From Hyalella azteca (lineage: Eukaryota; Arthropoda; Malacostraca; Amphipoda; Hyalellidae): DNA of 64,000 nucleotides. Below, in pieces: positions 34,247-63,700 of the stretch; positions within the stretch are counted from its first letter, which is position 1; each line of letters starts with the position of its first letter. The position numbers were made by a program, and so were the translations under genes. Location of the stretch: assembly GCF_000764305.2 (NCBI RefSeq), contig NW_025932050.1, forward strand, positions 496,001 through 560,000, written 5' to 3'. The notes under the pieces were generated by a model. That model had not been told where the DNA came from, ran no database searches, and was given only the letters and a program-made list of their open reading frames with translations.

Positions 34247-34673
34247 CTCACGCGTCACGAGGCAGATAATGTGAGGGCACCGCAGGCCGGTCCCTCACGC
34301 GTCGTGTGGCAGAGAATGTGAGGGCACCGCAGGCCGGTCCCTCACGCGTCGTGTGGCAGAGAATGTGAGGGCACCGCAGGCCGGTCCCTCACGCGTCGTG
34401 TGGCAGAGAATGTGAGGGCACCGCAGGCCGGTCCCTCACGCGTCGTGTGGCAGAGAATGTGAGGGCACCGCAGGCCGGTCCCTCACGCGTCGTGTGGCAG
34501 AGAATGTGAGGGCACCGCAGGCCGGTCCCTCACGCGTCGTGTGGCAGAGAATGTGAGGGCACCGCAGGCCGGTCCTTCACGCATCGTGAGGCAGAGACTG
34601 TGAGGGCACCGCAGGCCGGTCCCTCACGCATCGTGAGGCAGAGACTGTGAGGGCACCGCAGGCCGGTCCTCAC
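34247..34673 (-). repeat. 47-bp array, 10 copies, each with a GTGAGG splice-donor motif (minus strand)
   Basis: Copies start about every 47 bp (34247, 34294, 34341 and so on to 34669). Read on the minus strand, each contains GACGC|GTGAGGGACCGG or a close variant such as GATGC|GTGAAGG. The right end runs into a putative minus-strand exon at 34670-34836, whose last bases (CCTCACGACGC) and first intron bases are repeated in the array. Most units are identical, so it is a young or homogenised array. Confidence 0.9.
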
Positions 34674-34836
34674 GCGTCGTGAGGCAGGGAATGTGAGGGC
34701 ACCGCCAGCCTGTTCTTGTCCCGCCTCGTGGTGCGCCGGTGCGTGCAGGGCGACGCGTCCCTCACGACGCTCGTCTCTGCCGACGCGGACTCTTGGCCCC
34801 CGCGCCGAGTCCCGCCGCGTCGGGCGACCGTCGTGC
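34670..34836 (-). CDS. Possible extra 3' coding exon of the adenylyl cyclase
   Basis: A GC-rich block preceded on the minus strand by a strong acceptor (ACCTCCCACCCCCAG). Entered in phase 1 it is open for about 53 codons, starting TTVARRGGTRRGG and ending PSHSLPHDA with TGA at 34670-34672. Exon 21 offers a phase-1 donor (GAGAA|GTCAGT), so joining is formally possible. Alternatively a donor at GACGC|GTGAGG (exon lower edge 34674) leads further 3'. The sequence is Arg/Ser/Thr-rich with no domain. If unused, the cyclase ends at the stop at 36486. Confidence 0.4.
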
Positions 34837-34839
34837 CTG

Positions 34840-35175
34840 GGGGTGGGAGGTGGTCAAGAAAAGAGGAGGTGAAGTGTAGTCAAGAAGGAAGAGGGGTATG
34901 ATTTGGTTAAGAAGAGAGGGGGTGAAGTGTAGTCAAGAAGGAAGAGGGGTGTGATTTGGTTAAGAAGAGAGGGGGTGAAGTGTAGTCAAGAAGGAAGAGG
35001 GGTGTGAATTGGTTAAGATGAGAGGGGGTGAAGTGTAGTCAAGGGGGTGTGATGTAGTCAAGAAAAGAAGAGTTAAGAGTAGTCAAGGGAGTGTGATGGA
35101 GTCAAGAAAAGTGGGGGTGAAGTGTAGTTAAGGGGAAAGAGGGGTGTGATGAGTAGTTAAGGGGAAAGGGGCGAA
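34840..35175 (-). repeat. Purine-rich minisatellite, about 50-bp unit
   Basis: Degenerate units with AAGAAGGAAGAGGGGTGTGA, TTGGTTAAGAAGAGAGGGG and TGAAGTGTAGTCAA. On the minus strand it is a long polypyrimidine-rich tract ending at the putative acceptor of the exon at 34836. Related shorter motifs continue to about 35600. Confidence 0.85.
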
Positions 35176-36019
35176 GAGTATATACTCGAGTGAGGGTGAC
35201 TAGTACTCAATGTAAAGAATATGGCTCTTTGTTCAGGGGATTGTTCAGAATGAAAACTCGTTGTGGATTGTAACGGTTTCTGAAAACAAAGAATGAACAA
35301 TTTGAACACAAAGTTGAGGTTATACGAAATTATAAACAATATAGAGAAAATATTCGAGGTTAACAAGCAATAAAATGATCATAACACAAGTATATGCTCA
35401 CGTACCAAATTGCTGAACAATCTAGGTCAAGTGTGGTTAAAACTGAATTTTGCCCGAGCTCATCAACTCTGGTTCTACCTAAAAGGTCCCAACCTTATGT
35501 ACACGGGAGAAGTATGTTCCGTAAAATTCTTACACTCAAGTAAGAATGAAGAGTACTCAAGGTGGATGAAGAGCACTTAAGGGAGTGACATGTAGCCAAG
35601 GAAAGGGTGATGTATTTTGACAGAGAAAAGGCAGATAAATGTCAAATGAACGAATAAATTAATATAAATGCAATTAATTGACAGAAAATTACTATTTGGT
35701 TGAGCTTACAGATGAAGAATAGAAATTTTCGCAGTCAATTGCGACAAATGTTTATTAGTTCGGAAGAGTTCAGAAACAATATTATGTATAATAGACTGAT
35801 ACCACCATGCAAAATTTAACCAAACTGAAAAAAATGGATTTATTGACAGTGACATATAATTGAAATTACCATTCACATTTTCGAACATCAAGAAAGATTA
35901 AAATCAGTACTCAAGTTTTTTAACATCCTTGATTTCATAGCTATCATCAATTTCAATTTATACCCCATGTTCGAGACTTCTAATCTACAGCCAGACTTCA
36001 ATATTTTATAATCATTAAA
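35176..36019. other. AT-rich DNA 3' of (or in the last intron of) the cyclase
   Basis: Contains degenerate ACTCAAG/GTAGTCAAGG words trailing from the neighbouring minisatellite at 35530-35605. Otherwise no signal is seen. Confidence 0.4.
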
Positions 36020-36573
36020 ACTAAACCAAATGCTGGTTTAGGTCTGCAGCTGCCTGGCCTGCAGGACGAATAATTTATTAATCTACTCTAATAACACAAA
36101 TCTACTCCAGTTATAATAATCTACTTACACTAATTTATTCTAATCTACACCTTAGCCACACATCAATCTTTATCCAGCACTTAAGAAATAAATCAAATAC
36201 TGAACACGACTGATTTCTCCTGGTTGTCTTCCGCCGCCTGGCCTGCAGGACGCACTAATCTACTCTAATGACACGAATTGTTATAATAATATACTTACAC
36301 TAATCTATTCTAATCCACACTTTAGCTGCACATCAATTTTTATCCAACGCTTTATAAATAAATCAAATACTAAACACGACTGACTTCTCCTGGTTGTCTG
36401 CCGCCGCCTGCAGCCTGCAGTACGAACTAATCTGCTCTAATCACACTAATTGTTATAATAATCTACACACTAATCTACTCTGCAATCAAACATCAATCTT
36501 TATCCAACACTTCAGAAACAAATCCAATACTGAAGACGACTGACTTCTCCTGGTTGTCTGCCGCCGCCTGGCC
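36020..36573 (-). repeat. About 165-bp tandem repeat overlapping the end of cyclase exon 21, 3-4 copies
   Basis: Copies of CTCCTGGTTGTCTGCCGCC plus CCTGCAG occur at about 36546, 36386 and 36218, and a weak fourth at about 36030. Each is followed by the same AT-rich segment (TTATAATAATCTAC, ATCAATCTTTATCCAACAC). Read on the minus strand, the unit includes the last codons of exon 21 (RRRQTTRR) and the possible donor GAGAA|GTCAGT; the third copy has lost the GT. Confidence 0.85.
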
Positions 36574-36746
36574 TGCACGAGGCCGTACACGACGGCGGCT
36601 AGGCTGTTGTGGGCGCTCGGGTTGCGGGCGAAGGCAGGTTTGGTGCAGGGCCGGCGCCCCGTCACGTAGTATGTGTCCATCGAACCCTTGCCCTTAACTT
36701 CGATGCGGCCGCGGTGCTGCACTTTGAACCCTCTAAACTTCAGGAT
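36486..36746 (-). CDS. ADCY8: Cyclase exon 21: end of C2 and C-terminus
   Basis: The acceptor is ACGTCTCCAG, phase 0. Encodes [20 protein letters not shown], containing the VKGKG lysine motif that contacts ATP phosphates, then TYYVTGRRP and the type 8 signature [16 protein letters not shown]. Read to the in-frame TGA it ends at 36486. Alternatively it splices at GAGAA|GTCAGT (lower edge 36545, phase 1) to the possible exon at 34836. Confidence 0.85.
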   Translation of the reverse strand: MLKFRGFKVQHRGRIEVKGKGSMDTYYVTGRRPCTKPAFARNPSAHNSLAAVVYGLVQARRRQTTRRSQSSSVLDLFLKCWIKIDV

Positions 36747-39700
36747 CTGGAGACGTTGCAAATTTTTAATTAGTAAATTTAGGTTATAACTGAATAATAT
36801 GACATGTGCATGGTGGAAAATGGGTAGCTATAGGTTTTAACTTAGCAATAGATTTTTATTTACACGAAAATTTGCCATATTTGCACAGCGTAAGGAAATA
36901 CCGAATGAACGAAACCAAGTTCAGGAACGAACAGAAATTTAAGTTTAAATCAGCATTAAAATTAGGATTTTGAGAATTTTTTTCAATCTACTCTGTTATA
37001 ACAACGGGCCAAGTTTTTCTTTGAATGCTCTGTATAGGAAGTCGAATATCTTAGTGGTCTTACGTACCAAAAATACTAATATAATGGGAAATATATATGC
37101 TGAAAATTTTATTAGTTGACATTTATTTTAGCCACTCGTTGATGGATCGCCATTGACTGGAAATCTACGCTCGATCAGTTAGTGATCGTGCACTCATTTT
37201 TCAACATAAAACAAATTTAGCGACAAAGATTTGGTTCGTGATGCCTTGAAATGGTATGAAAATGTATCTTTGCTTTGCACACATGCGTTCAGATCAAAGA
37301 TTTTTATTCTGGTTTTCGATATGAATATGTGCCATGGACCTGCCCAAAGTACCTGCGCAGTATACCAGTCCCCCGTACCTGTGCAGTGTACCAGTCCCCC
37401 GTACCTGTGCAGTGTACCAGTCCCCCGTACCTGTGCAGTGTACCAGTCCCCCGTACCTGTGCAGTGTACCAGTCCCCCGTACCTGTGCAGTGTACCAGTC
37501 CCCCGTACCTGTGCAGTGTACAGCCCCCCGTACCTGTGCAGTGTACCAGTCCCCTGTACCTGTGCAGTGTACCAGTCATCCGTACCTCTGCAGTGTACCA
37601 GCCCCTGTACCTGCGCAGTGTACCAGTCCTCCGTACCTGCGCAGTGTGCCGAGGTATCTGGATGGTATCGAAGGTACCAGTGGAGTCCATCCTAGAAGCC
37701 TCGTTGACTGTGTTGCCCCACACGTCGAAGACTGGCTTACGCGCACCGATCACCCCGCCCACTAGCGGTCCGTGGCTGATGCCTGGTGCGGTATCGGTAT
37801 TCTTCACAAATCTCAACATAAATTCAATCATGAAAGATAAATTAAAAATTACATAAATATTTATTTAAAATAAAAGTTTTTCATTCTGCTTTTTGTTTTC
37901 CACTTGCGTTGGTTTAATAAGTTGCAAATGTTGGCTTAGTAGAAGAAAACTATTTTAAGAACTGAATGCGATCTTGAGAAATCATGAAATCGAAGCATGA
38001 AAAAGAAATTAATTTTTTCATAGCGAGCTATGAAAAAAATAATAATTTACAGCATACGCAAGCGGTTGAGTTGCAAAAACTTTTTTAATGAAGTCAAATT
38101 ATACTCGGAAAATCGACTTACCGACTCTGAGGGAGAAGTTGTTGAACGAGTGTTTGTTTAGTTCCTGCAAACGTGTTCTCATCTCGAGGGCGAAGTCAAC
38201 AAGAGCCGCCAAGTGAGCGTCCTCCTCTTGCTGCGTAGCAAATAATTAAATTAATGGAGATAATATAATACATTACTGGCATATTATAATGATAATATGC
38301 GTCATGTTGCGGCACAAAATTAAAGAGAGAAAACTCAACTAATAAAGATGATTGAATGTTTTATTTATCAGCTTCTCACGTACTGGCCCTCTTTTTGTCT
38401 TCACTACATGTGAAGAAAAAATGAAACAACATTTATTATCGTCCAAAATTGTAAACCCATAACATCATTAAGATCTTTTTTGCGATTCTACGAATGCACT
38501 TTTTTAATTTTCCTTGTCATTTTGTTGTCGCTACACTCAATAATAATTTACCAATTTTACCTTCCAGTTAAAACCAATATACTACTCACGAAAAAAAATT
38601 GTTGATTTATTAGCGATGCTATTTCGGCAGTAAATCCAAAATTTATTTATTTGAGAGACCTCAGTTTTCTTTTTCATCTAACGCTACATAAAAATTACAC
38701 TGGCAGCCGATTAAAGGCCCCATATGGCCTAGTTGGCCACCCACCTGCTGGCAGGCGATTAAAGGCCTCATATGGCCTAGTCGGCCACTCACCTGCTGGC
38801 AGGCCTCTGGACTGAGGCCAGCTGCCGCCATGTACGTCGAGCCGATCGTCTTGATCTTCTCGACCTGCGAGAAGCGCTCCTCTTCCAGCAACTCGTCGAA
38901 GTCAACTGCGAGAAAATAAAAGAGCTATCGTCATAATAAACCAAAAAAATTGTTCACAGTGCTAAATCTAATGCGAGAAATATAGTTCATAAGTAAATCG
39001 CACACTTTTTATGATTAAGTTCACTGCCATAATGATTCATTTCCAATCTGAGTTATTTAATGACTATTTTTTAACTGTAAGTAACATTCCGTGTCTTTCA
39101 ATCATCTACAAATCTCATAGATACAAATGGTTTAGTTTCTTCACCGCAACAAACATGAACAATATTCAATATATCGACGACTGAGTTTTAGTTTTTGTTA
39201 ACACTTGGCGTTAATATTGTTCGTACCGAAGATCTCGTTGAGCAGCCTGATGCACTCGACGCCGCGGTTGACGTCCTCTGAGTAGAACTGCGTGAAGTTG
39301 GGGATGGAGGCGAACATCACCGCAACGTTGTCGTACGCTTGTGAGAACAACTCCTGGGGGTCACCATCAACACAAATTACACATTTTCAGGAGAATTTAT
39401 TGCATAGAGAAGTTGTAGGTCAATTTTACACTACAAAAAAGTTGTAAGTCTGTCTTACGTCAGCAACTTAATTTAACTGGTGGAGCGTTAAATATATATT
39501 CCGCGTGTGAATTATAATACACAGTACCTACAGTAATTATCAGCCTCTTACCAGAAAACATCCAAATTAAACTTTTGAAGCAAATATATTAACAGATTTT
39601 AATGAATCATAAATAAAGTAGTAAATTTATAAATAGATTATGAACCGGAATCAATCAATTTGAAAAGCATTTATTTTCTTTGAATGGATCACTTATTGCA

Positions 39701-42700
39701 TTGAAAGAAAAAAAAAATCGATGGCAAGAAAAGGCAATACAAAACAGGAATTGGCAATCAATTGGCACCCAAATTATATCCATTTCTTACATGACTCTTG
39801 CGGTGACTGGACAGGAAGTAAGTAGCGACGTGGTCAGGTAAGATGTTCCGCAGCAGCTGCGTGTTGTAGTGCCGACACTCTGCCATCTCCTCGAGCTCGC
39901 TGATCGCTGTCTCTTTCCAGACGAAGTCGAGACGTGACGCGATCTCGACAAGTCGTCCGTGGTACGAGACCAGCACCGCGAACAGCAGCAGTAAGATGAA
40001 CAGCCGCGCTCGCATGGATGTACTGGCGACAACACCGCAACTTTTTGGCACTTATTTCTTAATAAAGCTGATCATTCTTTAGTGCTTCGTATTCTAGCGA
40101 AATTTGACGCCTTGAACCTACGATCAATTGAAGGCGAAAACGCTAGTTTCCAAAACTTGTTTGAAAGGTAATTTCAGGCACGAATTTGTGACTGAAAGTT
40201 ACCAGATTGAAAAGTGAGCACAAGCGATAACATATATAAGGGACCACACACATAAACAAAATTGTAAATGTGAAAAATACAAAAGTACGAAATTTATATA
40301 GTAAAAACTCTACAGTTGAAAGTAGTTTTGTCAAATCAGTAATTAGAAAGCGAAAAAAAAGTAAGGCCTAAATAAAACAAAATGATTTTGTTGTTAAAAA
40401 ACGCAGACTCACTCGACGTAGTCATCAGGGCCGAGGACGGTGTAGAGCAGCCCGATATGGGTGGCTACCATGACGCAAACTATGACTGTCTTAACGATGT
40501 ACTTAAGCTTCAAGAACCCTCCCAGTATTATCATGCAGAGAACCCAAGTGTACACGACGTACTGGGGTTTCTGGCAGTGCAGAGGGAGACTAGAAATGTC
40601 CCTGAATTGGCCGGTTTTCATACCAGAAAACTCGTCATTCGAGCGACCAAGATTCAAGGTTTTCAACGGTGATTCTTGACTAGAAAATTTCTCAGCCGAT
40701 GGTTCAGACAATGAAATGAATGGGTTCATTTTATTTTGAGGCTCAAGATCATCGTTTTGGATCTCAAGACTATCTTTACCATCGTCGTCAATGTCGTCTG
40801 ACATTTCGGTGCTTTCTTCCGACGAATGTAATCTTGAAGGAGGGGCATACGGCGATGTGGCGCTTATAATATACGGAGCGGATATTATGTAGCTCAACTT
40901 GGACATTGTCTGTAGGGGGAAATATTTAGTATCTTGGCGCTTTTCTAAGCTCCTCTTCTGCTTTAGTATGATTTTTGGAAGATGCTTGTAATTATCTGGA
41001 TAAAATGCTCGTCTTAACCTTATCAAAGAAGGACCAGGTTCCTTCAAATAATCTGAGTCGGTTTGTTCAAAACTATTTACATCGGCATCGTAAAGTGGCT
41101 CATGATCAAACGTAAAGTCATTCTCGGAGTCCGTTTTTCTTCGATCGAGAACAGAATTGCTTTGATTATAAATTTGGGGACCGGTTTCATTTTGAGAAGA
41201 AATACTGTGGTTATCCATCGAATTTGTGTCGTTCTCTGCGTACAGAAAATCTGAGAAATACTTAGCAAGAGAAACTTTTTCAGAGAGGAGACTATCTTCG
41301 AGAATCGGAGTTGTTGCGCTCTCATCGTTCTGCCTCTGATCGCACTTGTCGACAAGCAAAGCCTGCAAGTAAATCAATTTTGTTAGAAAATTTAATCGAA
41401 GATTTTTCAATGGAAATTAATCCAGAACAAATTAAAATTGTTATGATTCTGTAACTAACTAATTGCGAAAGACATAATATGCAATTTTTCGTCATAAAAT
41501 ATGTGGGATGCAAAATACTGGACTAAAATAAACTAAGCTTAAGATAGGCAGTGGAAAATCACAACAAATTTGCGTGACTAATTCCGGGAAAACACAATAT
41601 ATTACTCCTCAAATAACTTAGAACACTGTCCTCAACCATGACACAATATCTTCATCAGTGGCCCAAAAACTTTGAAAACATAATGCAAAAACGCCCGCCT
41701 CAGGGACAGTAACACCATCGGTGGCCAAAAAAAAACAGAGACAGTAACACCATCGGTGGCCGAAAAAACCAGAGACTGTAACCAGAGCTGGGCAGCGCTA
41801 CTTGGAAATGTAGCGGCGCTACCGCTACCGCTACATGCTCTAAATGTAGCGGGCGCTACCGCTACCGCTACACCCACTAGATTGTAACGGGCGCTACCGC
41901 TACCGCTACAGTAAAATGTAGCGCGCTACATTAGCCGCTACAGTGGCCAAAATTATTGGAAATCTCTAAGTATTTATTGTTCTGCTAATGGGATTTACTC
42001 ATTAACATTTAATGATAATAAAACATTTTGGAAACATATCAATGCAACTTTATTGCAATTAACCTAACCGAACTAGTATGGATTAACCCCAGGGTTAGAT
42101 ACAGTAATTGGAAGTTGTAGTTATTTTTATGTTTTACCTTCCCTACATGAATGTGAACTTTAATCTAACAATCTAAAAAATTATCCACATATACATATAA
42201 AAATCAGTCTTTTTTGTATATATATGTGGATTAGTTTTGAGATTGGAAGATTAAAGTAGACATCCATGTAGGGAAGGTGAAACATAAAAATAACTGTGTA
42301 AAAATAACTGTGAGCAAACTGAAAGATGAAAAAAACCTGTAAGTGGTAACTGGTAACAACTTAACAAGTAACAACTAACAAAAAACCTCGTATCGCTACT
42401 TAAATATGTAGCGGGCGCTACCGCTACCTCTACATTGCCTTAAATGTAGAGCCGCTACCGCTACCGCTACTGAAAATGTAGCGGCCGCTAGTAGCGGCCG
42501 CTAGTAGCGGCCGCTACATGTAGCGCGCTACTGCCCACCTCTGACTGTAACACCATCGGTGGCCAAAAAAAAACAGAGACAGTAACACCACCGGTGGCCG
42601 AAAAAAACAGAGACTGTAACACCATCGGTGGCCAAAAAGAACAGAGACAGTAACACCATCGGTGGCCGAAAAAACCAGAGACTGTAATACCATCGGTGGC

Positions 42701-45700
42701 CGAAAAAAAACAGAGACTGTAACACCATCTGTGGTCAAAAAAAAACCAAACACAGTAACACAATCGGTGGCAAAAAAAACAGACACAGTAACACAATCGG
42801 TGGCCAAAAAAACTTACCCAGGGAACGGTGGCCCCGGCCGTGATGCCGGCGACGAGCAGGAAGATGTAGAGGCGCCTGAGGGAGACGTGCTCGGCGAGCG
42901 CGAGGGCGAGACGCTGCACGAGGAACGGCAGACACGGCAACACGTCAGCCATTGCCACCGTGTACGCTGCCCCGACGAACAAAGACGTGCAGACCAGCGA
43001 GATGTACACCGACACTTCCCTGTCACGTGGAAACAATATCTTACAGTATCCTTTCACTACATTGGGGTACTTAATTCCTACAGTTCCTAGTCATTCGATA
43101 ACTTAACTCAGTTTACTTCCTATAGTTAACTCTTTTTACTATAATAGAATAAATAAATACACAACTTACAAAATTAGAAGGCATATCAGTAGTGCAAACA
43201 CAATTCTACATGAAAATTTCCCTAATTAAATTGAATAAGATTAGCAAAAAACATGACTGCTGACCCGTGGAAGAGAATGAGATGGCAAAACAAGACGCAG
43301 AGCCAGATGAGGCATGCGGCGGTCGCCTCGCTCTTGAGGTACACAGCGCGGCTACGGCAGTAGACGCTCTCCAGCTCCGCTAGCTTGAAGTTCAAACTCA
43401 GCGGCTTCATGTACTCGGTGCGCATGCGTCTGTTGGATGCGATCTCGATGTTCATAGCCATCAGCTCGTTTGCCTGCGAGTGAAACCGGTAATATTAAAA
43501 AAAGAGTCTATTTATTTATTTATTTATTTACTTGTTTATTGATTTAGAGGTCCGATGATTACCACATGATAATTATCTGAAAATACAAGTTGAGTGAATT
43601 ATTTTAGATTTCAAGAATGTGTTATGAGTGAAAAAATTTACTCGCAAGTGGGAAACATGGATATCATAAACATTTACATGCAATATATATGTAATACGTT
43701 GTTACTTTAATATCTTGCTTTGTTAGACGGTTAATAACGGCATTTCTATTCATAATTTGTAGACGTGCTAATATTATAATGGTATTCAACACGGCTGTTA
43801 TTCTACCTCGGCATCATGACCGAGTTAACATCAAAAGTTTGGTTAGTGTAAACATCTTGATTTTTCACCTCAGCGTTGCAGTCGTGTTGAGTCTGGTCAA
43901 GTTTTTCGTTCTTTCCTAGATTTTCATCATCGTCCTCGTCTTCGTCTTCATCGTAGTCTGAAGATAAACCCTCGTCCAGAAAATCGTCCAGGAACGCTTC
44001 GTCTTCCCAGTTCGATTCCAGCTGCATAATATGAGTTCTCGTTAATCGATTAAAAATGTGCAGTTGCAACAAGTGGGCAACGAAATATGCTTCAATTTTT
44101 TCTTAGAAAATAACATATTGTATTAGCTCTTCGTTAATTGTTGAATATTTATGACAATTAAGACTAATGACATAAGCTCTATCCGATACTTAAAAACTTC
44201 TGAAATCTAAGAAACGGGCATAAACATCATCTACGAAATTATCAGAAATGAAATCAATGCATAAAATTTAACATGACTTGTTGTAGATTTAGATTTTGTT
44301 TTCTTACACATTGAAGGCGAAAGAAACTTTTTCAGTGCAGAGAATAAAGAGACACTATACTTATAGCTAAGCAGATATCTCAACTTAAATCCGAAAAAGT
44401 ATAAATAAAATTAAAATAAAACATATTTAGTTTAAATATATTAACAAATTTTCATTGATAAATGAATCGATTTTAGAGAAATGGATGTATTTCCATCCGA
44501 AAAGTAAATAATTTGATTGGGCGTGTCGATCGACTTACGTCTCCGAAGGGGTATTCCGGACACCACTCGTTGTTCGGCAGCGCTTTGTCTTCCTCCTTAT
44601 ATTTTCGAGACGTTCTTAGAAAATCTCCGTTGACTTTCGAAAAACCCGTAGAAGGGCTTTGAGTTTTTTCAACCTCAGGGCTCGATGGCTTCATGGTACC
44701 ATTTTTACCGTTAGGGTTGCACGTAATTATTTGATTTTCAGAAGTACTCATTTCTTCTTCTATAATATGCGATGAAGTTCTCGGTGAAGTATCTATGAAA
44801 ACTTCGACGTTTTTCTCGTTTAATATATTGAACTTAAGACCATTACAGCCGTTGAGACTAGGCCGTTCGTCAGTTTTTGCCTCTTCACTGACCTTATCAC
44901 TAGTTTTTTGGGGAATTTCACAGCCATCTTGCACTTCATTACCATTAACAAAATTCAAATTAATATTATCTATCTGCATCTCAATGACACATGAATCTCT
45001 TTTAAAACCACATTCCTGTAGATCCTGCCTATCATATTTTGGCACATCAGAAACTGATGAGGATCCGTCATCGACAGCACAATTTTTGATAACGTCCTTT
45101 GTTTCTCTGTAGCAAGACTCCTCTACTCGATCCTTATCCGAACCGAAATTTGGGTTATATGTGCCCTTCTCTGGGCTTGAATTTTTCGTAAAATTATTAT
45201 CGATGTTTTCGGAACCAAAAACCTGCAAAATAATTATGCTTTTAGAAGTGGGTGAGATAAATCAAAATTAAGACGAGTGATCGAAATTCGTTGGCTCAAT
45301 AACAAAGATTAAAGTAAGAGATACATTAACCTCATACATGTGTTATTTTAAGGATATTTCAAAAGTTTTGTCATCAAATTTTGATTCAAATCAGATTTTA
45401 TATTACTTCAATTAAATTTATATTTAAAATTATTTTTTTAATTCTCCAAATTAAAGGAGAAGTCTAGAGCTGTGGTGCCCATGTGGCCTTATGACCTTAT
45501 GACGGGGTCTTTGGAGACAACCCTTCTCGTCACCTCACTTGAAATTCGGAGGTACGCGGTGCAGTCTCTGTTCTTTACCTGGCCCGAGGTGCGGAGGTGC
45601 GCGGTGCAGTCTCTGTTCTTTACCAGGCCCGAGGTGCGGAGGTGCGCGGTGCAGTCTCTGTTCTTTACCTGGCCCGAGGTGCGGAGGTGCGCGGTGCAGT

Positions 45701-48700
45701 CTCTGTTCTTTACCTGGCCCGAGGTGCGGAGGTGTGCGGTGCAGTCTCTGTTCTTTACCTGGCCCGAGGTGCGGAGGTGTGCGGTGCAGTCCGCGGTGCT
45801 GAAGATGCGGGCGCGTGAAGGACGATGGCGGCGACGACAGTGCAGAGGCTCGTCGCGCGCTATAAGGAATGTTTCCACCTCTCGGTCCTGCCGCAAGCAA
45901 AAATATTTTGCTTTAAAACATTTGTATTATTTTGTGTTACATGATTTAATCGCGAACACTCTAGAATTTTCTTAACTACAAACTATTTAACAAGAAAACT
46001 AGTCGAAGAATATTTAATTATTGCGACCAATCTAATCTGAACAAATAGAACTTAGATTGCACTGTGAGTAAGACTTGAAAAATTAAAATATTGTGATTCG
46101 AAACGATGGTTTCACAATTCATCATATGGATATTTACAGACTCAGAATTGAATTTTTATTGTATCCACAAACAGATTGACGAACGTTTTTTTTTTTTCTT
46201 GAATCAATTTCTCAGTTCAATTGATTCTTAAGGCATAAAGTTTTCAGCTTTACGATCATCAACATCATTATTTCATCTAAGAGATAAAAGTTGGCCACTG
46301 TAAGTGTTAAGAACTCGTTTCACGCATTCAACTCACATTTAGAGGATGATAGAAAGATCTAATTTCCTATGAATTGAGCAACATAAATTTGATAATCAAG
46401 ACAACAAACAACTTCGGGAATGGGCAATGTGAGGCAGCTTGAGCGGGAAACTTTACAACGACACATTATTACTGACGCTTAATCGTCCCCGGTCGTGGCA
46501 CTTAAAAAAGTTTGCGATTTTAATTGGCTTTGACGCAACCTTGACTCAGCAAATTGTGTGCTTGATATGTGAGACGAGGCTGAATGTCTATGTCTAGCGA
46601 ATGCTTTTTTTCTGGTATGAGGGCCAAAATTGAAATACTCAATAATTGAAAATAAAGTGAGAAATAAATATTGTCTTTGGAATATAATTATTTTCAGAGT
46701 TAATGTAAACGAACTGATGAGATTATCGAGATGATCTGTGACATAAATATCAACATAAATAAACCACCAGGAGACAATTACCCATAACACTGAAAAAAAT
46801 TTAAGATAAACCTGCGACAAAGATAGAAGATCCACATAAAATATTTTATGGAATCCTAACATCATCTTTCGTTTTACTAACGCTTGTTATTCACAATCGC
46901 TATATAATGTCATATGAACCTAATCCTCGAAATAAATGTCATTAAATCGACAATGGACCCTGGGAATGAGGAGATCGCAATAAATTCAAAGTTCTTTGTA
47001 CTCAAAGACCCTTTTGGCCGCAGCATCCATCGTGGCAGTCACATTGACATGAGTGCGATGCAGCGACGAGTCGACCTAAAATATTTTACCGCCATAAGCA
47101 ATTTATATTCACTTAAGTTGAGGGCAGAGTTTATGCCAAAATTTACAGTTTCCGGAGATGAACTTTACTAAGGTTAATCAAGCTTGAAGAAAACTTACTA
47201 CGTCAAAGATTTAACGAAATAAAATTGGTCATTCAATGTAATGTAACTGGTTTTAGACTGCCAATAAAAATTGCATTGATACGTTATTAAACTGTAGTTA
47301 TTTAGAAAAAATATTATGTAAACCTATGTAAACATACAGTATTCAAAGTTCACGCACATGAATAACCATAGATAATAACCGGAATGTTTTTTCTGTCTAA
47401 GGTGAATAAATAATTTCAGCACTCAAAAACTCATGCCGCAATTTCAACGCCTATTCAAACGTTAAAAAAAAAACTCCAGAAAAAGTGATAAACACGATGC
47501 AATTATAGGTGAACGATTTTTACCAGCGCCTCCACAGCATTGAACAACAAGTTTTTATAGCAGCTGATTACAGTAACCACTTTTTCTAAGCAGTATCTCT
47601 GTCTCGTATCATGTATGCGTTATTGGCATTATTTTTCCCTAACGCACCGCGCTATATGTGCCTCACTACTATGTAGGTTGCGGCCGGCCGGTGCACGACA
47701 CCTTCGTCATTTTTGCCGGGAATATAAAACTCTGATCAATGTCAACAGCAAGGGGAGCACTCTTGTCATTGAATTAAACTGGATTTTCATATTAGATATT
47801 CAGCTAATTTCGATCAATGATTTATTTCTTAAATGCAAGGGGACATAGATTAGAAGTCGTTGAATGGTTAAAATAATAACACAGATGCGATATTACTATA
47901 TATACTACAGTAGTTAACTAATAATTTTCGTCAAATTAATGATAACCGCACGTATACAAATGTTTTTCGAAAAAATTATTGCTCGCCCAAAAACATGTCG
48001 TAATTTCAATGCCTATTCAAACGTTAAAGAAACTGTAGAAAAATTAATAAACCTTCATTAATAATAAACCTTCGTCATTGCATTAAATTACATTTTTATA
48101 TCAATATTTAAATAATTTTTTTGCTAAATGCAGGGAGACCAGTGGCGAATTTGGCTGACTTTATTTGAAACGAAGTCAATCAAATTCATCAGTCTTTCGG
48201 TGCTGGATTTTCACTGATGATGGTGAGAGGCAAACGTGTTGAGACGATCAGCGATCACCTGGTCCGCTAAAATTGAAATGAACAATCAAGATCATTTTTT
48301 TCGTTTATTCGTTTTATTTTCCAAATATTTTACTCGTTACAGTTACCATGAGAGTTTGGTTCATTTTCAACTTATATTTATTATACTTTCACTGCGCGGT
48401 TTGTGAATTTACGATGATTTCATTTTTCTTCAGGAAAGTTTAGTAAAGGAAAAGACATAAAGGTAATCGTTAAAACGATAAATAAATCAGCAATAACCTT
48501 GAGGTAATCACCAACGTTAAGACGCTATGTCAGCACTTACCTTGAGATAATCAGCACCGTATTATTATCAACTCAGCACTAACCTTAATTAAGTTTTATT
48601 CAAAATTTAGCACTAACCTTGGGATGAAATTGGACGTTGTACTAAAAAATCAGCCTATAATATTGAAAAGTCTGCAACATTTTATTCTCAGTTCAGCGCT

Positions 48701-51700: not shown

Positions 51701-54700
51701 TGCACATACATATACATCCCATGCATTGCAGAATAACGCATACGTCGCTAATCCGTAACGTAATAGGTAGATATTCAGGAAATTAACTTCTTTTAGTCCC
51801 TGTCGATAATAAAATGCAAGGTTCATGCAATGGATTATAGACTTGATTTGTTTAAAACCTTCTGAGACTGAACATTTACAGCAGCCAAAAATTAATTTAA
51901 CTGCGGATATGCATCCGTTTTATGTGAATCGTAATATTTCAGTGAGAGATGAATTTATTATGAAACCAATTCTGCAAAATATTCATTGTTAAACTATTAC
52001 AACTGAAGTACGTATTAATTGATGAGGATTTATTCACCATAATTCGATCGTGATATGCAACTTTCACTATTTAATACCCAATAAACTTGCAAAACGCACT
52101 CCAGACCTTGAACCAGAATGCATACTATTTTTGAATATATCTTAGACATGAAGACTCTTTTTCATGAAGGTATACTGGACTACACATTAATCCTGAATAA
52201 TCATTACATTTAACCGTGTTAATTTGCACATAAAATCACGCATAAAACCACTAGATGCTCTACGAAGATACAGGCTCTCCGCAGGCAAATAACCCAATAC
52301 TTTCTTCGATTCATGGAAAGGTAGCGGACGAGCAGAAGCAACACAAAGTTTATAATAATGACTAAACTTATTTTATGAAAAAATTTAACATTTCTTCGAC
52401 GTGTATCACGCAGTGACGCACCTGCGTATTGCGGCGCACAGCAGTGACGCATCTGCGTATTGCGGCGCACAGCAGTGACGCACCTGCGTATTATGGCGCA
52501 CAGCAGTGACGCACCTGCGTATTGCGGCGCACAGCAGTGACGCACCTGCGTATTGCGGCGCACGGCAGTGACGCATCTGCGTATTGCGGCGCACAGCAGT
52601 CACGCACCTGCGTATTGCGGCGCACAGCAGTCACGCACCTGCGTATTGCGGCGCACAGCAGTGACGCACCTGCGTATTGCGGCGCACAGCAGTGACGCAC
52701 CTGCGTATTACGGCGCACGGCAGTGACTGCGCGTATCATATGGAGGCCCATCTCAACGCAACAGATGGCGTGGTCACTGCGCGCCTGAGGCAGGCCAGAG
52801 ACGCAGTAGTAGCAGTCGCCCAGCAGCTTGATGCGCAGGCAGTGGTTCTCCTGTGACACCAACGTTGAAATGTGCACTTTAAAAATCAATTTAAAATGAT
52901 AAATTGTATTTATAACATAACCATATTTAAATAACCAGCTAAGCGGGATTATTGTTAACGTATTCATTTTGTTATTTTCGAGTTTTATCCATGATACCTC
53001 ATATTTGTAAATTATTTCGCTTCAAAATCTGAATTTCAAGCGCTAATCAGAGAACAATAATGAACACGGTTGTCCGTAGATGCATGAAAGTTAACGTTTT
53101 GCATCCAATTTCTAATCCCATTCACAACGGATTTCCTGTCTGAATCTCAGTTTTATACAGCATTCACAGTCTCGTTTATCTCGATACGCTTAATCATAAT
53201 TTTTAGCGTCGTTTAATTTTCCTGTTGTAAATTTTAAACGTGTACAATTTTCGTATTACTTTAATTCTTTTCCAAACGACGTCTCCTTTCGAAATAATGA
53301 TGAGATTAATCTCGGTAAGGCCGAGTCGCTGAATAATTGACCTTACATTAGCTATTTGCTATAAAATACTCGTGGAAAAAGCAAAAAATTTACAACAAAC
53401 ATCTCTGTTTTTTTATTCTTTCAAATGAACTCTTTTCATACCTGTTTTTTCACTTCATAGGAATCAGCGCCAGTTAAACAAAATCCTCTTATTCCAAAAC
53501 CTGGGCCTTTTAAAAAAAACATCGAACTAGGAAATTTATTTTAAAAGAAAGTTATGATAAAAACAGAAATTTTTACTCCAGCTTCGAGATGGAACTGTCA
53601 GTGGGTTGATACGTTCCAAGTTGTAAATCGTTGACTTATTATTTATAACGCATGACGCATTACATAATTGACATTTAAAACGCATGAGAGAAATTTTATG
53701 AGCTTCAAATCATATTGATTGAAAATGCGAATGCAAAAAGATATATGGACCAGTGATCACATTCAAGAGTTATTATTTAGCCACATAGTCGATCAACTTT
53801 TGAATGGATTTAGGTTGCATCACTTTCGTTAAACGAGATTCAAACGCTTCTATAACGCGGAATGCGATTCTGTAGTTTGAAATATTTTCACCAATCATGC
53901 CTGAAATAGTCAAACCTCTTACACGTCCATTGGCAAATATATTCTACTCATTGGCGATCATCGATGCGAAACGTTGAATGCGCGGAACTATATACCATCA
54001 TGAATGCGCGAAACTTAACTCCCACATGTATAACAACGTTGTTGTTAGCTAACGTTCATAACGAATCACTGCTTCATGTCAAATAACATACATTTATTGT
54101 TATTCATATTAACTATGGATGCTTTGAAAATAAATGAAGATTATGATTTTCCTTACAGCTGCCAGTCTGTCAAATCGTCCGAAGAGGTCGTTGAGTACGC
54201 GTACGAGCTCCTCCGCACTGCACTGAGACGCCAGCGCTGTCGATAGATTATATTTATACATAAACACCATTTTGAATTTCTTGAAGAAACCCTATCGCCC
54301 AAACAAGACTAATAACTTAAGCATAGAAAATTAATAGTTTCGGTAATGGCTTTTCTTCACAGGCATTACACCAAGTAGAACCTCAATTTTTAAGCATGAA
54401 TTTCTATGTGTTTCAGGAAATCACAAAAACTCGCAAGGATAATCAACACTGCACGCATGAAGAGAACAGAGTTACATTAATTTTTCTAGCTTCAAACGCT
54501 TCACAATTGCCAACGCAGGGGGCAATAATTTGCAGACAAGGGCAATAGAAGAGAGCAGCAGTTTTGGAGCGCCAAGAGAAGAATTCTTAACGGCATTCGA
54601 GTGGCAAAGAGACGTGAGTTTCCTGCAAAAGCCTGCCTCGAGGCTGGAGTTTAGAGCTGCAACCAAGCTATTTTGAGGCACACCATAAATCAAACTTAAA

Positions 54701-57700
54701 GAGCGCAACTCTTAAAGAGCCATTGAGCCGAGCCGCAACATAATTTAGCGCCGGTAAAGAGTTCCACTCGACCTCTTTTAATGGCCATAAAAGTGAGGCT
54801 AGCTGGACCTCTCCATGGCGCGATGCCACAACGCAACCATTATAACAGAAATTGAATTGTTCAGGAGAAACTCAATAAATTATTCGATTAGTCTTCTTAA
54901 TAAAATACTCCATATAAGCCAGACGCACCAAAACTCACTTGTGCTAGCAACATTTGCTTCATCTCTTATTATTTAATTGTAAAAAAAGGAAATAATATTT
55001 TGCAGTAAGGCAATTAATAGATTTAAGTTATCAAAAACAGAGTTTTGTTTTGATTAGTTAAAAATTAGTTTGAGGATAAACCTTTGAACTAGAATATCAT
55101 TCAAAATATCGCTAATGCCTCAAATGAAGTGTTTTTTTCAATATTATCAATAATTAAAGGACTGACAAATTAGGTTTGTTTTTTAGTTTCTTCAATTCAA
55201 GTAGTAACAGATTATATGAGCAAAACAAGATAAGAAGAGAAATTAAGTATCACTATTAATGGTCTGAAAGAATTTATCCCGCAGTAACTATTTACAGCAA
55301 AAGAGGACACATTTATTCCTTTGTTAATAATGCTAATCGTATCTGCATCATGATTAAATCAAATAATGAATAAAGAAGCTGGAAGATCACCAATAAATCA
55401 AATCATCCAAGTCCGGTTTATCCTTAGTCCATGCCTGCCAGCATGAGTGGGTCAGAATTCAAACAGTGAAGGATCAAAGTGAAAGCCTTACCAGTAAATC
55501 CCTTGATGTCAGCGAAGAGTATGGAGACGTTCTCGTAGCGGTGGATGTAAATTTTATGGAACTGTGCAGGCTGGAACTCCCCCCTCTCTTCTTCCCTTGC
55601 AATGTCCCGGATCATCTCTAGTGCCACAAATCTAGGCAGCACTGAAACACAAGTGAAAAAAACGAGTCAGTTCGAGGTGGCAGTTAGCCCACGCTTGTTG
55701 CTCTACAATATAGGTTTTTCAATTGAAATTGACGTTGGGCCTTCTGTAGAATGGTTATCTCAAGAACATTATTGTGAAATGTGTCCTACGAGATTAAATA
55801 CATTTGTCCGTGAATTTAATTCACCGTTAGTCCCACGCTAGCGTATATGAGCTTCCGAAAATTATAGATATTTTATAGTTGAGCTTGAGCTCCATAGCCT
55901 TTATTAGAGATTATAGTCTATTTTCTGCCGGTATCATGTAAGAGAAGTCGGTCTCTTCATGCATACTGCGTTTAATTTAAGGTGATTTTTCTGATCTCAC
56001 TATTTCTCACTACTTTATGTCTCGTTGGAGAAACGAGATTCACCAGACAACAGAAGTTTCTCCTGTCGGAGGTTCTCCTGGCGAGTGCGGCATCGCATTT
56101 CCATCGCCCGTTTGGTCTCCAGGAAAGCCTTGCGTTGACTTCTATCACTGAGATACTTGCTGTAGACGCCTGATGTGTTCAGTCCAAGTGACAGCAACAC
56201 CTCAGCTGCCAGCCACACCCAGTAGTGTGCTTTACCGCCCTGTCAGCACAATGTCAAGAGTCTGGTCAGAGTGAGGGTTCTGATGAAACGTAATACTCGA
56301 CAGGGGTAATATCTCTCTGGGAACCTTGTCACGTTAAATTTAAACTTTGCCCTTTGTAAATTATTAGCGCAACAATATACTAATTCTATTCCCAACGACG
56401 AACAAACGAATGTTTAACTTGAAAGCTAAAATAAAATGCTGACCTCTGAAATTAGAGAAACTGTAAATATATTTGTTTGGTAGTAGTAAATACGTATAAA
56501 TCAATTAAAATAAACGAAACACGCCTATTCATGTAAAAATTACCAAAGCCATGTAATAAAAACTGATTAACTTTAAAAATTTCCATCGCAAATCTTTAAG
56601 ACCAATATTGTTTAAAAGCCTCAAACACCAACCAGGATGAAGCTGGCGATAGAGAAAGCGAGATGCAGCAGCGAAGTGCCCACACCGATGAACAGCGCCC
56701 ACCGTAGAGGTAGCGGTAGCATCCCGTAGCTCACGAACACGGTAAAGAGCAAATACCAAACCATGTTGTCGTTACCGACGCCCAGTGCATGCGGAGGTAC
56801 CGACGTTGGGATGCCGAGGCTATCCATTACTATCATTTGCTGTAGGATCGTGGAGTTTCCCTCGTAGGTCCTGACGTTCGGGGAGCTGTTAGGCCCGAGG
56901 GTCGAGGGGTGTGGGTTGCAGAGAAGGTACTCCCTGAGTTCGGACTGGAGGTATAAGATTTGTCCTAGAACACCTGTAATGTAAGGTACCAAGACATAAT
57001 TAATAACGTGCCTAATTTAGTCGAAACAATTAGCATGAAGGCATCTGAGGGGTTACTTACACTAAAAATTCAGGGAACATTGCGAACAAATTTTTAACGA
57101 TTTACGTGTAATTGATGACAGGCTTCCGCGAACATAATTATGTGTTGTATTGAAAAATATCTTCAAGATCAAATAATGAAATTGTATTGAAAATAACGAA
57201 CCAAAGCGCGCAGATTATTCCTTTTGATAAGGCAAAGCAATATAGCAACATTTTTGCAACATCTTTCTAGGCTTATGTTAAAAAACAACTGCTGTTGTGT
57301 CAGCACTGCACCGCAAAATATCGATATTTTTTGGCAGTTTTAATATTTTCAGGCGCCAAGCACCAGGTGCATTGTTGGTCGTACCAGGTGTACGACCAAC
57401 AATTTTAAATTTAATGTGGACAACACAATTCATTGTTGATGATGAAAAAAAAAATTTAACGGCCAAAAGATGTGTTTAAGTTCTGACAGAAGAAACTGTT
57501 GGATAATAAATAATCAGGAAGAATATTTCTAGACCCAAAAATAGATCAGTTAACTTGTAACTTGATTTAATATTATTTGTTTCGAGATAATAAGCACATA
57601 TGAGAGTTAATCTTTCTTGGCAGAATGAAAATTTTTATGAAAAAATAGCTATAGTGTCATTTCTATTGCAATAAAAGCTTCTGATCATCTTAAAAATGCG

Positions 57701-60700
57701 TAGCTTTCCCAGTATAGATTTAAAATTAATCATACAACTAAGCACGTTTTTAAGAGACTTCAAATAATTTCAATTATCACAAGAAAAAAGTTCGAAATCA
57801 TTCCGTAACCTAGATTTCACAAAAGAGATCTTTGCATTCATTTGAATTGCAAATTCAATGCCGAAGCCAGCTATGCGATTTTCGACAGTGGCAAATCGCA
57901 GCTCGTGTCGAAAAAGAATATTGATTAAATTTATTGGGCATAAATACGTCGAATCTATTACTAATGTTAACTAAAATTTACAGAACCACTAAACCCTACA
58001 TAAAAATAATCGGATCAGAATGGCATTCAAAAAATTAATCCGCTGAGACAGAAATCCAAGGCTACACGAGCAACTTTTACAGTTTTAAATTTTCCAACCG
58101 CTGAAAATCGATTTTTATGCTTAATGGAGCAATTAAAAAGACACGAAATTAATATTTAAGTACTAAATTAAAGCAATAGCTCGAATTCTAAATAAATTCA
58201 GGGAACTTGTACAGGAAGTCTTATTTGAATGCGGGTACATACGATTTTTAACAATATAATTGAGTTACCAAATATTTCATAATAAAATTTCACTTCTCGT
58301 ACAGTTTGACTACGCAGTTCACAAAACAAACGTAGACCTATAAAGGCTATGTTTGCTATCGCGAGCTAAGTCTAGCTTCCGACTGGCAGATTATTTTCTT
58401 TATTTTTTGCAAGGTTTCATTTTCAACCAGCAACGGCTCACAATCCTGTAAAAAAATGTTATTAAACTAAGAACGAAGCAAATAAAAGTTCAGTCCTTTC
58501 ATCCTCACAGTAAAGCTGAGTTGTTCCTGAAGCAAATAAAATCCGAACATGAATTGGGAGCGCAAACATACGAGTGACGAGCTTCAAAGAGCGATTCATT
58601 TCCAAGGTTGCAGTCAACAACAACAATTAAGACGCGACCATTTACTTTAAAGATGAATTTTGACGACTCAATAATTCACGTGGCGCATGAACTCGAAATC
58701 AAGGACCTTCATTAAAATGAAATCCCAAACGAAGCAAGCAGCGAGTGCCCAAACTATGACCCGTTGTGAAACGGACGAAAATAATGATAATTTAAATACT
58801 GAAAAATACCTTAGGAAACTTCATGGTGTTGAAAGACAATTATAGAGAATAGTGTAGGTAATCACTATAGCCGTATACAGTACACTAGAACGAGATGTGT
58901 GACGGATGCAAGGATTTAGGACTGACAATTCTACGAATACTGATAAATTGAACGTGAAGTAAATTTTACCAAAAATTCATATTGTGCCTTTCGAATTATC
59001 AGAAAAAGAAGTTATCATTGAAGTTAATGCCGTGTATTGGCCTAAAATACTCGCGAAGAAGAAGGCGAGCAGAATAAGCGGACAAGAGCAAGATTCGTGA
59101 CAATGTGAGCAGAGTTCCTGGCTAAGGACATGCTACGTGCGTAAAATAAGTGGTCAGGCAACAGTCAAGGTCATAGCGCTGCAATCTTTCGGCGGCAAGG
59201 CCAACTAGAATGTACATAATTATTTGTAACTACAATTCCGACATGACGAGGATTTTAAACTCTTTATTGCGTGAAAAATCAAGGATTTTAAGGGAATTTC
59301 TTAACAAAAAATAAACTGATACATTGATCTTTTCAAATCACATAAAAAGAATGGGTGCATTATTCTAGGAGCGAATAGTGGTAACAGGAACGTAAAAGTC
59401 TGCGGAATCCAAAACTGCAATTTAACTATCTAATTGTCAGCCTTCTTATGAAGAACATTACAAATTAAAGTCTTATTGTTAATGATTTTAGGCATTGAAG
59501 GTCTACAAAGCAATGAGACGCCATTATATATTTTCATTTAAGCTGAACGGTGAATTTCTGACATAGTAATGTAAATTTTAATTCTACGATGATAAGAGTA
59601 GATGCAAGGAACAGCGAGGGAGTCATGGAAGCAAATGCTGAGATGGCATATCGTCTTTCCCATTAAAGTCGTCCCTGACGTTAGGAAATAAAATATTAAA
59701 AGAGAAGTGAGGAAATTTATTGTAGCTTTTGAATATATGCATATGACAAGGATCGTTGTTGGCCTTTTCACGATATGGTGTACAGGATGCGTGATATATT
59801 TGATTGTGTCTGAAGTAGCGGATATTTTTTTTACGGAATTAATAATGTGAAATTATTGTAATTAGTCTCACTAAAACTATTGTGATGCATTTATATACTG
59901 GATTCGAAAAATGCATGCACCGTAGGAATCGGTTCCTGTCTGATGGAAAAGTTGTAATGCAATGCAGAAATCTCTAGATAAACAAATAAATGCTGAGTAA
60001 TAAAACTATATGCTGTATAAAAATCCTGCCTAATATTATAACTGATAAAATTTAGAAATGAAAATCAAATTACTCTTCTAGACGTCGAAAACTCTATATA
60101 AAGAGGAAATGGTGATGAATGCAAGAATTGCTTCAGGATGATAATACTACCGCGTTGTATAAGTAATGCTGAGATATAAAGTGAACCTACCTATGCCGCT
60201 TAATGAAGTCAACTTCAGTAAGAAGTTGACTTTGGGCTACTAAAAATTGCTGAAAATGTCTCCACTGAAGTTGAGAAGTAGCTGAAGTAGTAGAGCTTCA
60301 TAATGACGGTAATCTCATACCTCATTGTACTTTTCGGCCTCAGCGCATTGATCAATGATACGTTGTGTAGGTAATGTGATGAGCGGTAGATCTGTGAGAG
60401 CATTGACATTCATTGTATGTAATCACCTTGCTCACACTAAACCGTATTGTTTAGACAGCTGCAACTGCAATACTGTTGATGTTCCAATATGCGCCATAAG
60501 AAATTCCACGCGATGTCAGTAGATTCCGTACCCACGTTGCCTTTGAGCGGCAGTGCGGTGAGTAATTCAGGGTAATGAATGGAAACTCAATACTTATTAT
60601 GCGAGGCGAGCGGCAGTGCAATGAGTAATGCAGAGTATTTAATGCAGCCTCAATGCTTACTCAAGGCGATTAGTGACAGCGCAGTTAGCGATGCAGAGTA

Positions 60701-63700
60701 TTTAATACGCTGTACTACTAATGCAGGCGGTGAGTAATGCAGAATATTCAATACTCTGCAGTACTACTGCAGAGTATTCAATGCAGCCTCAATACTTACT
60801 CAGCGCATTGAGTGAGTATTGAGCAACGAAAAGTAATGAATGTCGCCTCAATACTTACTCGCCCAGCGCATTGAGCATGAGCGCGGTGAGGAATGAAAAG
60901 CATTGGGTAATACTCACTCTGGACGTTGAGCAGGAGGGCGGTGAGCAGAGCTGCGTAGTGCAGGTAGTTATTAGCGAAGACGTTCCAGGCAGCCACACAG
61001 CACACGAGAAGGTTCAGCGCCATGCACACCAGATAGACAATCTGTGCATAATAGAGACATGTTCGAAATGAAATAATTGTGGCCGAACGAATAACTCCAA
61101 CTGAAAAAATGAATTAATAACGGGATAAATCTCGTACACGTTATCAGTCTTGTAATAAAATTTTTAAAGTTATTCCAGTTATCTTTTCAAATTAGCATAC
61201 GGTATGCATTTTGTAAAATAGTTTTGCATTGTAAAAATGCAAAACGCCTTAGAATAGTGTAAATACCCGAAAAATTACTGTGGAATTTTCAAAGAAAATC
61301 TTTTTATGGAAATTATGGAACCAAATTCTACTCGATAATTTCAATTCCATGCATGATGAACAAGACTGCATGGAAACATGGGCCACATGCAGCTTAATGA
61401 GCCTGGTAACTGGGGAAGATTGTTCAGTAATTTAAGCAATTTCTTGGCGATTAAGATAGACAAATTCTCCGTATCTTGCATAGCATGCAAAGCTCTTCCT
61501 TAATTACGAAGAACACGCAATGCTACTTCTAAGGGTCTACCAGCATACAACTCCGAGTCTTCTTAACGGTAATCCCTACAAACTTAACCACAAAAACTTT
61601 CCCATATTTTCGGTACTTACCAAAATCTCAGCTTAAATCCATTAGAATGTTTAGCAAAGTTCTTGGTTCACTACGAGGATCTGATTAAATATATTTTCCA
61701 GAAACACAACGTTATTCCCATCTCAACGTTACCAACTTGTTGACGGTTACGAAAAGAAAAGAATTGTTCAACGTTCACAATTTACGCATACTCTTTAATT
61801 CAACGAACTATTAATACTCTCAATGAACTTGAAATAAACTTTGGATTTTGAACAAGTCAAACAATGAATCAGCCGAGTACTAAAAACTGATTTAAAAAAA
61901 ATTCGAGTTCGTAAACAAAAATCTATCGCCTCGCGGTAAGAACACATTCCATATGTTCCTCGCGGTAGGAACCCATTTAAAACAATTTAAATAATATTTT
62001 CAATATTTTTCAACGTATTCCAGAATCTCAATCGTCTATTTAGCATCGAACAAACCCTGCACCCCTTCATGGTAAGCTAGGACACTATATTCCGAATGCA
62101 AAGTTCATGTCCCATTACCTATAATCTGCCAAACTGGAATTGAACTTCGTGTTGTAAGCTGCTATTGAAATTGAATTTCTTCCAATTCGATAGCCCCAGC
62201 ATCTTAGCTATGATGAGATGGTACCTGTCTTGATCATGAAACAAACTATGTATTACTTACATCTTGAAAGTGAGAATATGTCAAGAATATTTAGGTTGCA
62301 AAGCAACTTGAAGTGCGAAACTTTAACTGAGGTTCTTTGCAGAATTTCAAATGCAGCGCAGATATTTTAATTATCACTGAATATGTTTTATGGCTATTCG
62401 ACCGACTTAAAAACAAGAAGTTAATAACAAATTGTTCAAAGTTACCATGAAATAGAAGTCAACAATGCGAGTTTAAATTCAGAGATTGAATTTCAAGTCT
62501 AATCTTACGTCATTGCGACAGAGAAAAAGATTATTGAAGAAATTCACACTTGAGCAAATGTACACATACGAGATAAGAAAAAATTGAGGGAATTTTTACA
62601 ACACTTCTCTTTACCTTCACTTCTTGTGTGTTTGTTTGTTTGTTTGTCTGTCTGCTACAAATCTTGTAATCGAAATTTAATACACTTCTACTTATCCTAT
62701 CGATCTGAAATTTTGCACACTTGTGTAAAGTTGGAGACAATGCATGAATCAAATGTCAAAATATATGATTTTAAAATTTAAATTTTTTTCAATATTATAA
62801 AATTTTAAAAATAATTTTTTCAGCCACAAATCTTATAACTGATATTTGACACACTTTTACCTGTCTAATTGAACTGAAATTTTGCACACTTGTGTAAAGT
62901 CAGAGGCAATGCATGAATCAATTAACAGAATGAATAATTTTGGAAAAAAATAGATATTAAAAAATTTATATTTTAAAAAAATTGAAAAATTAATTTTTTT
63001 AATTTTCGAAAATTAGATGGGAAATTCATTGTACATCTGCAAGATTGGAGACACTGGATTCTTTGGAAGTGTTGTCTTTAAAAAGTAATTTTAAACGTAT
63101 ATTATTTAAATCTAATTTTGCGCTAAAAATTTATAGTCTAAAAAAATACGTTCTGTTCAGAACGCGGAATGGTAAAATATTGCATAGAATCAATTGTAAG
63201 TGTAAAACCGGATAGTCATTCCATGCACGGATAAATAAAATGCATTAAATCAAGTATAGTGAAATATATTACATATACAGAAATTATTAATGCATTTCAA
63301 ACATTAATAAATATATTATCAGTAATTAGCACTTAAATATTGATCCTATCTAAAGAGTATCTCAGCTTCATTAGAGCGCATTGACCATTAGAGCAAATTG
63401 CATTTCGTAATACGTTTAGTACCTATATTCTATACACAAATAAAAATAAATTCAATTTAACTATGTCAATTTTCAGTACAATTTTTGAGAAAGAAGTCAT
63501 CCACTGACATGTTTGTCGTAATTCCACAACTTCATCATTACAATAAATAACTTTTCCGTTAAGCAAATATCCTCACGAGAAAAAAAACAGGATGCTGGAT
63601 ACTTACTCTGAAACTAATTCCAGTTAAAAATTAACAGCATGCCAGCGGCTCACTTTAAAGTTCTTTCCACTCAATAATTATCAAAAAGTTTTGCACTCAC

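Follow-up and report, generated by a model that had tools for sequence, protein, structure and literature searches.

Tandem expansion of an exon border into the neighboring intron has been described in chicken under the name 'exon stuttering', for 236 introns in 115 genes, 190 of these introns lying on dot chromosomes (PMC12954441, Genome Biol Evol 2026). In the sections of that paper cited here, the source of the copies lies no more than 1 base from the exon border in >90% of cases, the exon parts are 20–187 bp long (median 36), the copies number 1–44 (median 4), and either the donor or the acceptor is copied (PMC12954441). The authors report there that, except in gerbil genes (data not shown in the paper), they did not find stuttering in other vertebrate genomes. 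Our full-text literature search found 'exon stuttering' and its variants in this paper alone, and donor-spanning arrays in an arthropod were described by none of the matches listed in our literature searches.

Here we describe tandem arrays at the 3′ ends of exons of one gene in a 64,000-nucleotide stretch of DNA (the window) from the amphipod Hyalella azteca. By their anatomy, these arrays are a close match to exon stuttering in chicken. As in the cases covered by the cited sections, an imperfect tandem expansion, local and tens to hundreds of bases long, starts at the exon border and carries the exon edge with its splice site into the intron next to it, the same gene is affected at several introns, and there is a link to GC-rich coding sequence (PMC12954441). 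In chicken, however, the copies include the donor or the acceptor, expansions confined to introns are common, intron lengths are strongly polymorphic and the cases cluster on dot chromosomes (PMC12954441). Here only 3′ exon ends are copied, in an amphipod and in a window of ∼38% GC, and the locus is represented by one assembly.

Other described systems resemble the locus in part, as far as the cited portions of each source go. The dual-specific splice-site arrays of UBC and VCX3A, for which a link to intron evolution has been suggested, also consist of units carrying AG|GT among which splicing may choose, but introns there comprise a whole number of units with both ends in the repeat (PMC10809524). 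Here the introns of the seven donor-array exons (536–3944 bp) outrun their arrays and continue to an unrelated acceptor. In intron gain by tandem duplication, a duplicated exon segment can likewise supply splice sites (PMC4974935), but in this gene an existing intron is enlarged and none was seen to be created; the acceptors lie outside the arrays, and there is thus no new intron bounded by two copies. Daphnia pulex is also a crustacean with repeat-rich introns, where repeats with units >8 bp are rarer than elsewhere; the word 'splice' is absent from the main text of that paper (PMC3152781).

The adenylyl cyclase gene

The gene carrying the arrays is an AC8/Ac78C-type adenylyl cyclase of H. 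azteca. In our own gene model, a single stop-free frame joins 21 cyclase exons, E2–E22, on the minus strand (34674..61041, read from 61041 downwards). A search of Protein Data Bank sequences placed adenylate cyclase type 8 at the top for both catalytic halves (E = 4e-123 and 6e-113), and a homology search with the cyclase translation found P0001 ('uncharacterized protein LOC108672252 [Hyalella azteca]'), which covers 100% of the query at 95% identity. Compared letter by letter, P0001 equals our translation exactly, apart from 60 additional residues at exon 10, one additional terminal alanine and 460 additional residues upstream. The first exon, E1, lies at ∼63853..63698 and is left outside the counts of 20 donors and 21 exons used below; its tail scores 14 in the exon-edge comparison, with a donor position that is off by a few bases.

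Arrays at the exon 3′ ends

Using Tandem Repeats Finder together with reading of the sequence, we found that seven of the 20 donors of E2–E21 open an array in which the exon edge and the donor are copied. These arrays are clear at E7, E10, E18, E20 and E21 and decayed at E2 and E9, and all lie on the minus strand. At E7, a 31-bp unit is present in 10 copies (52410..52727); the first takes in 27 exon bases, and the GT is gone from two of the nine intron copies. The E10 array (45547..45791) has a 45-bp unit that is in frame and open across five donors, and its first copy holds 33 exon bases. A 48-bp unit in 2.2 copies makes up the E18 array (38700..38804; 12 exon bases), where reading on to the second donor keeps the frame and meets no stop. 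At E20, a 26-bp unit yields 12 donor copies (37349..37647), the first with 11 exon bases, while the E21 unit is 160–170 bp long (36110..36577), with 33 exon bases in its first copy and one of the two intron donor copies lost. The decayed arrays have bounds set by eye: that of E2 (60560..60945) repeats GA|GTAAGTATT at a spacing of ∼59 bp, with donor copies at 60858 and 60799, and that of E9 (48475..48760) has a spacing of ∼43 bp. Within the E2 array, inverted repeats CTCAATACT...AGTATTGAG flank a donor copy.

The initial annotation had listed nine repeat regions with unrelated units, each spanning the 3′ border of an exon. All nine regions are present with unit lengths about as given, and the consensus units do differ between exons; the register holds in seven of the nine. 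We rejected the count of nine donors, since the array at E14 begins past the donor and that at E22 spans the stop codon of P0001.

The E14 intron array has a 34-bp unit (42543..42813, minus strand). It sets in only past the fourth base of the intron and takes up little or nothing of the exon, whose exon-only score is 16, so copying of this donor is unproven. The array is split by a 761-bp element (41783..42543, minus strand) with GTTACAGT at both flanks and internal GTAGCGGCCGCTA repeats, which from its ends we take to be hAT-like; a remnant of the array continues past the element at 41701–41782.

Six of the seven arrays reported by the finder (E7, E10, E14, E18, E20, E21 and E22) are 245–468 bp long, as a read-limited assembly could yield, and the array lengths may reflect assembly. 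That the arrays as such are artefacts of short-read assembly is nevertheless very improbable: their units are unrelated and carry copy-specific differences, some members are decayed, one register recurs in seven cases, and an element with target-site repeats sits inside one array.

The array over the end of E22

The E22 array has a 47-bp unit (34247..34705, minus strand), and its first copy includes 32 exon bases and covers a probable stop, GCG TGA. P0001 terminates at the alanine of this GCG TGA within that copy, so the array spans a probable stop codon. In alignment, seven of eight malacostracan relatives extend 7–14 residues past the end of P0001, while the eighth, a partial record, does not. 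A scan for a further exon 23 that would make the GTGAGG of E22 a donor, made with a rough pattern that could miss one, found none among 250 candidate acceptors (tails of 8–28 residues). Judged from the sequence, GCG TGA is thus likelier to be a stop than a donor, with a short last exon being possible given the extension in the relatives.

A CT-rich array with a 53-bp unit (34840..35168, minus strand) lies at the other end of this exon. It comes to within a single base of the AG in the E22 acceptor and does not copy it. On the transcribed strand, this array resembles an amplified polypyrimidine tract.

Exon edges at donors and acceptors

To score copying from exon sequence alone, we compared the last 40 bases of each exon with the first 800 bases of its own intron. 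As a null, 420 pairs of exon tails and foreign introns gave a 99% point at 20 and a highest score of 27. Seven of the 21 exon 3′ ends, including that of E22 with its probable stop, score above the 99% point: E2 (30), E7 (49), E10 (66), E21 (63) and E22 (55) also exceed the null maximum, while E18 (24) and E20 (23) lie below it. E9 (19) and E14 (16) fall short of the 99% point, E9 because the exon part copied there is short, and the remaining 12 exon ends score 10–17. As controls, exon tails score 8–18 against the previous intron and exon heads 11–21 against the next intron. The copies are strictly local, in that exon tails compared with foreign introns stay within the null. Together with the differing consensus units, this speaks against introners or a transposon as the source.

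At the acceptors, exon heads score 12–20 against the preceding intron in all 21 cases, and none tops its own control maximum. Arrays cover an acceptor in none of 10 cases, compared with ∼2.07 expected under random shift. The earlier observation that no array spans a 3′ splice site is therefore upheld, with 0 of the 21 acceptors crossed and exon-head scores at control level. With a 50-base window placed on the border, nine of the 21 exon ends score at least 24 intronward, as do 14% of positions in the gene, mostly within arrays. Only one of the 21 acceptors, that of E22, reaches this score, because the CT-rich array stops 1 base before its AG.

Placement beyond chance

All P values for placement are post hoc, the window having been chosen for this feature. 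When each array is free to sit wherever coding sequence stays intact, its chance of spanning a donor is 3–17%, and five of seven arrays do so compared with 0.42 expected (P = 8e-6, post hoc; E22 omitted as a stop case). Adding four more arrays that do not span a donor (the hAT repeats at 41806 and 42478, the remnant at 41701, and an array at 51624) gives five of 11 (P = 5e-5, post hoc); both forms of the test omit E22 and the short arrays in the gene at 42285, 42353, 43509 and 53531. A circular shift of whole arrays is a coarser and weaker test, with six of 10 arrays covering an exon 3′ end compared with 2.08 expected (P = 0.016, post hoc), because the arrays are long; placing the arrays independently gives P = 0.006 for exon 3′ end coverage (post hoc).

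These tests bear on an account by tolerance alone, in which duplications arise anywhere and those spanning a donor merely persist, as the initial annotation had proposed in a neutral form. The coding exons are indeed intact, and no array lies wholly within any exon of the cyclase, so tolerance of this kind is needed. Arrays internal to introns, however, would meet no less tolerance and ought then to dominate, while the counts above run strongly the other way. Coding tolerance alone is insufficient, since there are too few intron-internal arrays in 21.7 kb of intron; we disfavor it as a complete explanation and hold it to be improbable.

GC content and donor type

GC-rich sequence in this gene is concentrated in exons: outside the intronic parts of arrays, 40-base windows with GC of at least 0.6 number 1254 of 4466 in exons and 58 of 18173 in introns. 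Within this one gene, exons with arrays have a GC content of 0.62 compared with 0.52 for the other exons (P = 0.006), and their tails 0.66 compared with 0.55 (P = 0.007); both comparisons treat E14 and E22 as exons with an array. Among exon 3′ borders with GC of at least 0.6, six of seven have an array (E7, E10, E14, E18, E20 and E22, with E11 the exception), compared with three of 14 borders below 0.6 (E2, E9 and E21); the border window spans 40 bases, of which 20 are intronic and thus within the first array copy. The E2 and E9 arrays are internally AT-rich, which speaks against seeding by GC-rich sequence. GC content alone fails to explain the asymmetry between donors and acceptors, because the acceptor borders with GC of at least 0.6, albeit only three of 21 (E16, E20 and E22), are not spanned by any array.

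Two further associations concern the donors themselves. Arrays are found at five of eight AG|GT donors (E14 counted) and at one of 12 other donors (P = 0.018, exploratory and uncorrected), and donors with arrays are nearer to the consensus (P = 0.022, exploratory and uncorrected, one of several comparisons made). Both run against GC seeding, which does not predict them. They favor a process directed at 5′ splice sites, in which breaks or template switches at U1-bound or R-looped, stalled transcription complexes would duplicate the donor region, and the register at donors and never at acceptors, as well as the excess of donor-spanning arrays over expectation, points the same way. Exon GC explains part of the placement, though, the E22 array lies over a probable stop, the E14 array has no visible exon-edge copying, and arrays are missing at the two donors of the BTB gene in the window that we examined (tail scores of 14 and 12). 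The active, donor-targeted process suggested in the initial annotation is thus not needed given the exonic GC bias and the stop-spanning E22 array, while the GC-rich acceptors that lack a spanning array remain in its favor; we consider it possible but doubtful.

Use and fate of the copied donors

In the P0001 model, exons E2, E7, E9, E14, E18, E20 and E21 each end at their first donor. Nine crustacean and insect relatives were aligned with P0001, and extra residues are absent at E7/E8 in eight of nine (the exception has a 4-residue insert), at E9/E10 in nine of nine and at E20/E21 in nine of nine, which matches the prediction of first-donor use at these three junctions. At E10, this database model instead reads on to the fifth copy and so contains four extra 15-residue copies, 60 residues in all. 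All five donors at E10 are in frame and open. The later copies shift the frame in six of nine cases at E7 and in eight of 11 at E20, and both later copies at E21 meet a stop.

The copies could also have been kept as functional clusters of donors, to raise U1 recruitment or to give a protein of variable length. E10 would be a case in point: its unit length is divisible by three, the frame stays open, and the extra copies are present in P0001. The open, in-frame second donor of E18 is compatible with this, as is the decayed E9 array, in which AAG|GTNANTGC is common to five places, four picked by motif and the fifth being the true donor; AAGGTNANTGC is likewise shared by five places. In the four motif-picked copies, a 16-base core matches the true donor region at 53 of 64 positions compared with 54 of 128 in the flanks, while array registers at 48702 and 48659 lack the motif. 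The GT of copied donors, however, differs from the consensus at three of 52 positions compared with 58 of 1002 other sites in the E7, E10, E20 and E21 arrays, and thus shows no sign of constraint in the four arrays tested. This equal rate of change weakens the idea of donor clusters raised in the initial annotation, for which the better-kept E9 core, in places selected by motif, still speaks. Since in addition none of the units of 31, 26, 43 and ∼59 bp is divisible by three and P0001 is a database model, a donor-cluster function seems to us quite unlikely.

A proposed mechanism

The mutational mechanism that we infer, and with it the cause of the donor/acceptor asymmetry, is GC-seeded local tandem duplication, or exon stuttering, filtered by selection, a reading that we hold to be probable though well short of secure. 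An error of replication or repair would duplicate a stretch of ∼26–170 bp, seeded in GC-rich exon sequence. Duplications in the middle of an exon would disrupt the protein and be lost, while one running past the point where a coding segment ends, whether at a donor or at the probable stop of E22, would keep the upstream exon and a donor copy in their native place. A donor-spanning duplication would survive because this native upstream copy still allows a normal mRNA, and the E22 array would fit the same scheme because a stop codon, like a donor, closes a coding segment. The surviving duplication may then expand by slippage or unequal exchange and later decay. A duplication spanning an acceptor would add an extra AG ahead of the true one and would probably be lost, since splicing tends to choose the first AG that follows the branch point. 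Targeting of splice sites may act in addition to this scheme.

A broader and more speculative version, which we regard as rather unlikely, would have duplication coupled to transcription or splicing hit donors repeatedly in amphipods, with the arrays sometimes feeding in-frame repeats into proteins, of which the 60 extra residues in the E10 database model would be an example, and stuttering acting as a general, donor-biased form of intron growth. The H. azteca case, with its strict 3′-end register at seven of 20 donors in one conserved gene, would show that stuttering can occur without the dot chromosomes of birds, in a common laboratory animal in which the cause of stuttering can be asked. 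The hypotheses can be told apart by how arrays divide among donors, acceptors, intron interiors and stop codons, since GC seeding, targeting of splice sites and coding tolerance each predict a different balance, and existing assemblies allow the count.

Other repeats in the window

An array at 21.9 kb, previously regarded as an odd case of a donor array, was rejected as such. It lies within an open frame of 130 codons with eight 11-residue repeats (21838–22230, plus strand), in which its GTGAGT reads Val-Ser. With an AATAAA at 22272, this frame resembles a small coding gene or what is left of one.

A G-rich array with a 52-bp unit and repeated GAGGGTAACG occupies 4498–5015 on the plus strand, with no exon noticed alongside. 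An exon of the BTB gene, for which a BTB match was found, contains a 12-bp coding repeat (17707–17880, plus strand), and a zinc-finger exon begins at 24053. Between 31100 and 32900, broken remnants of a reverse transcriptase, presumably LINE-like, are followed by TTCTA repeats.
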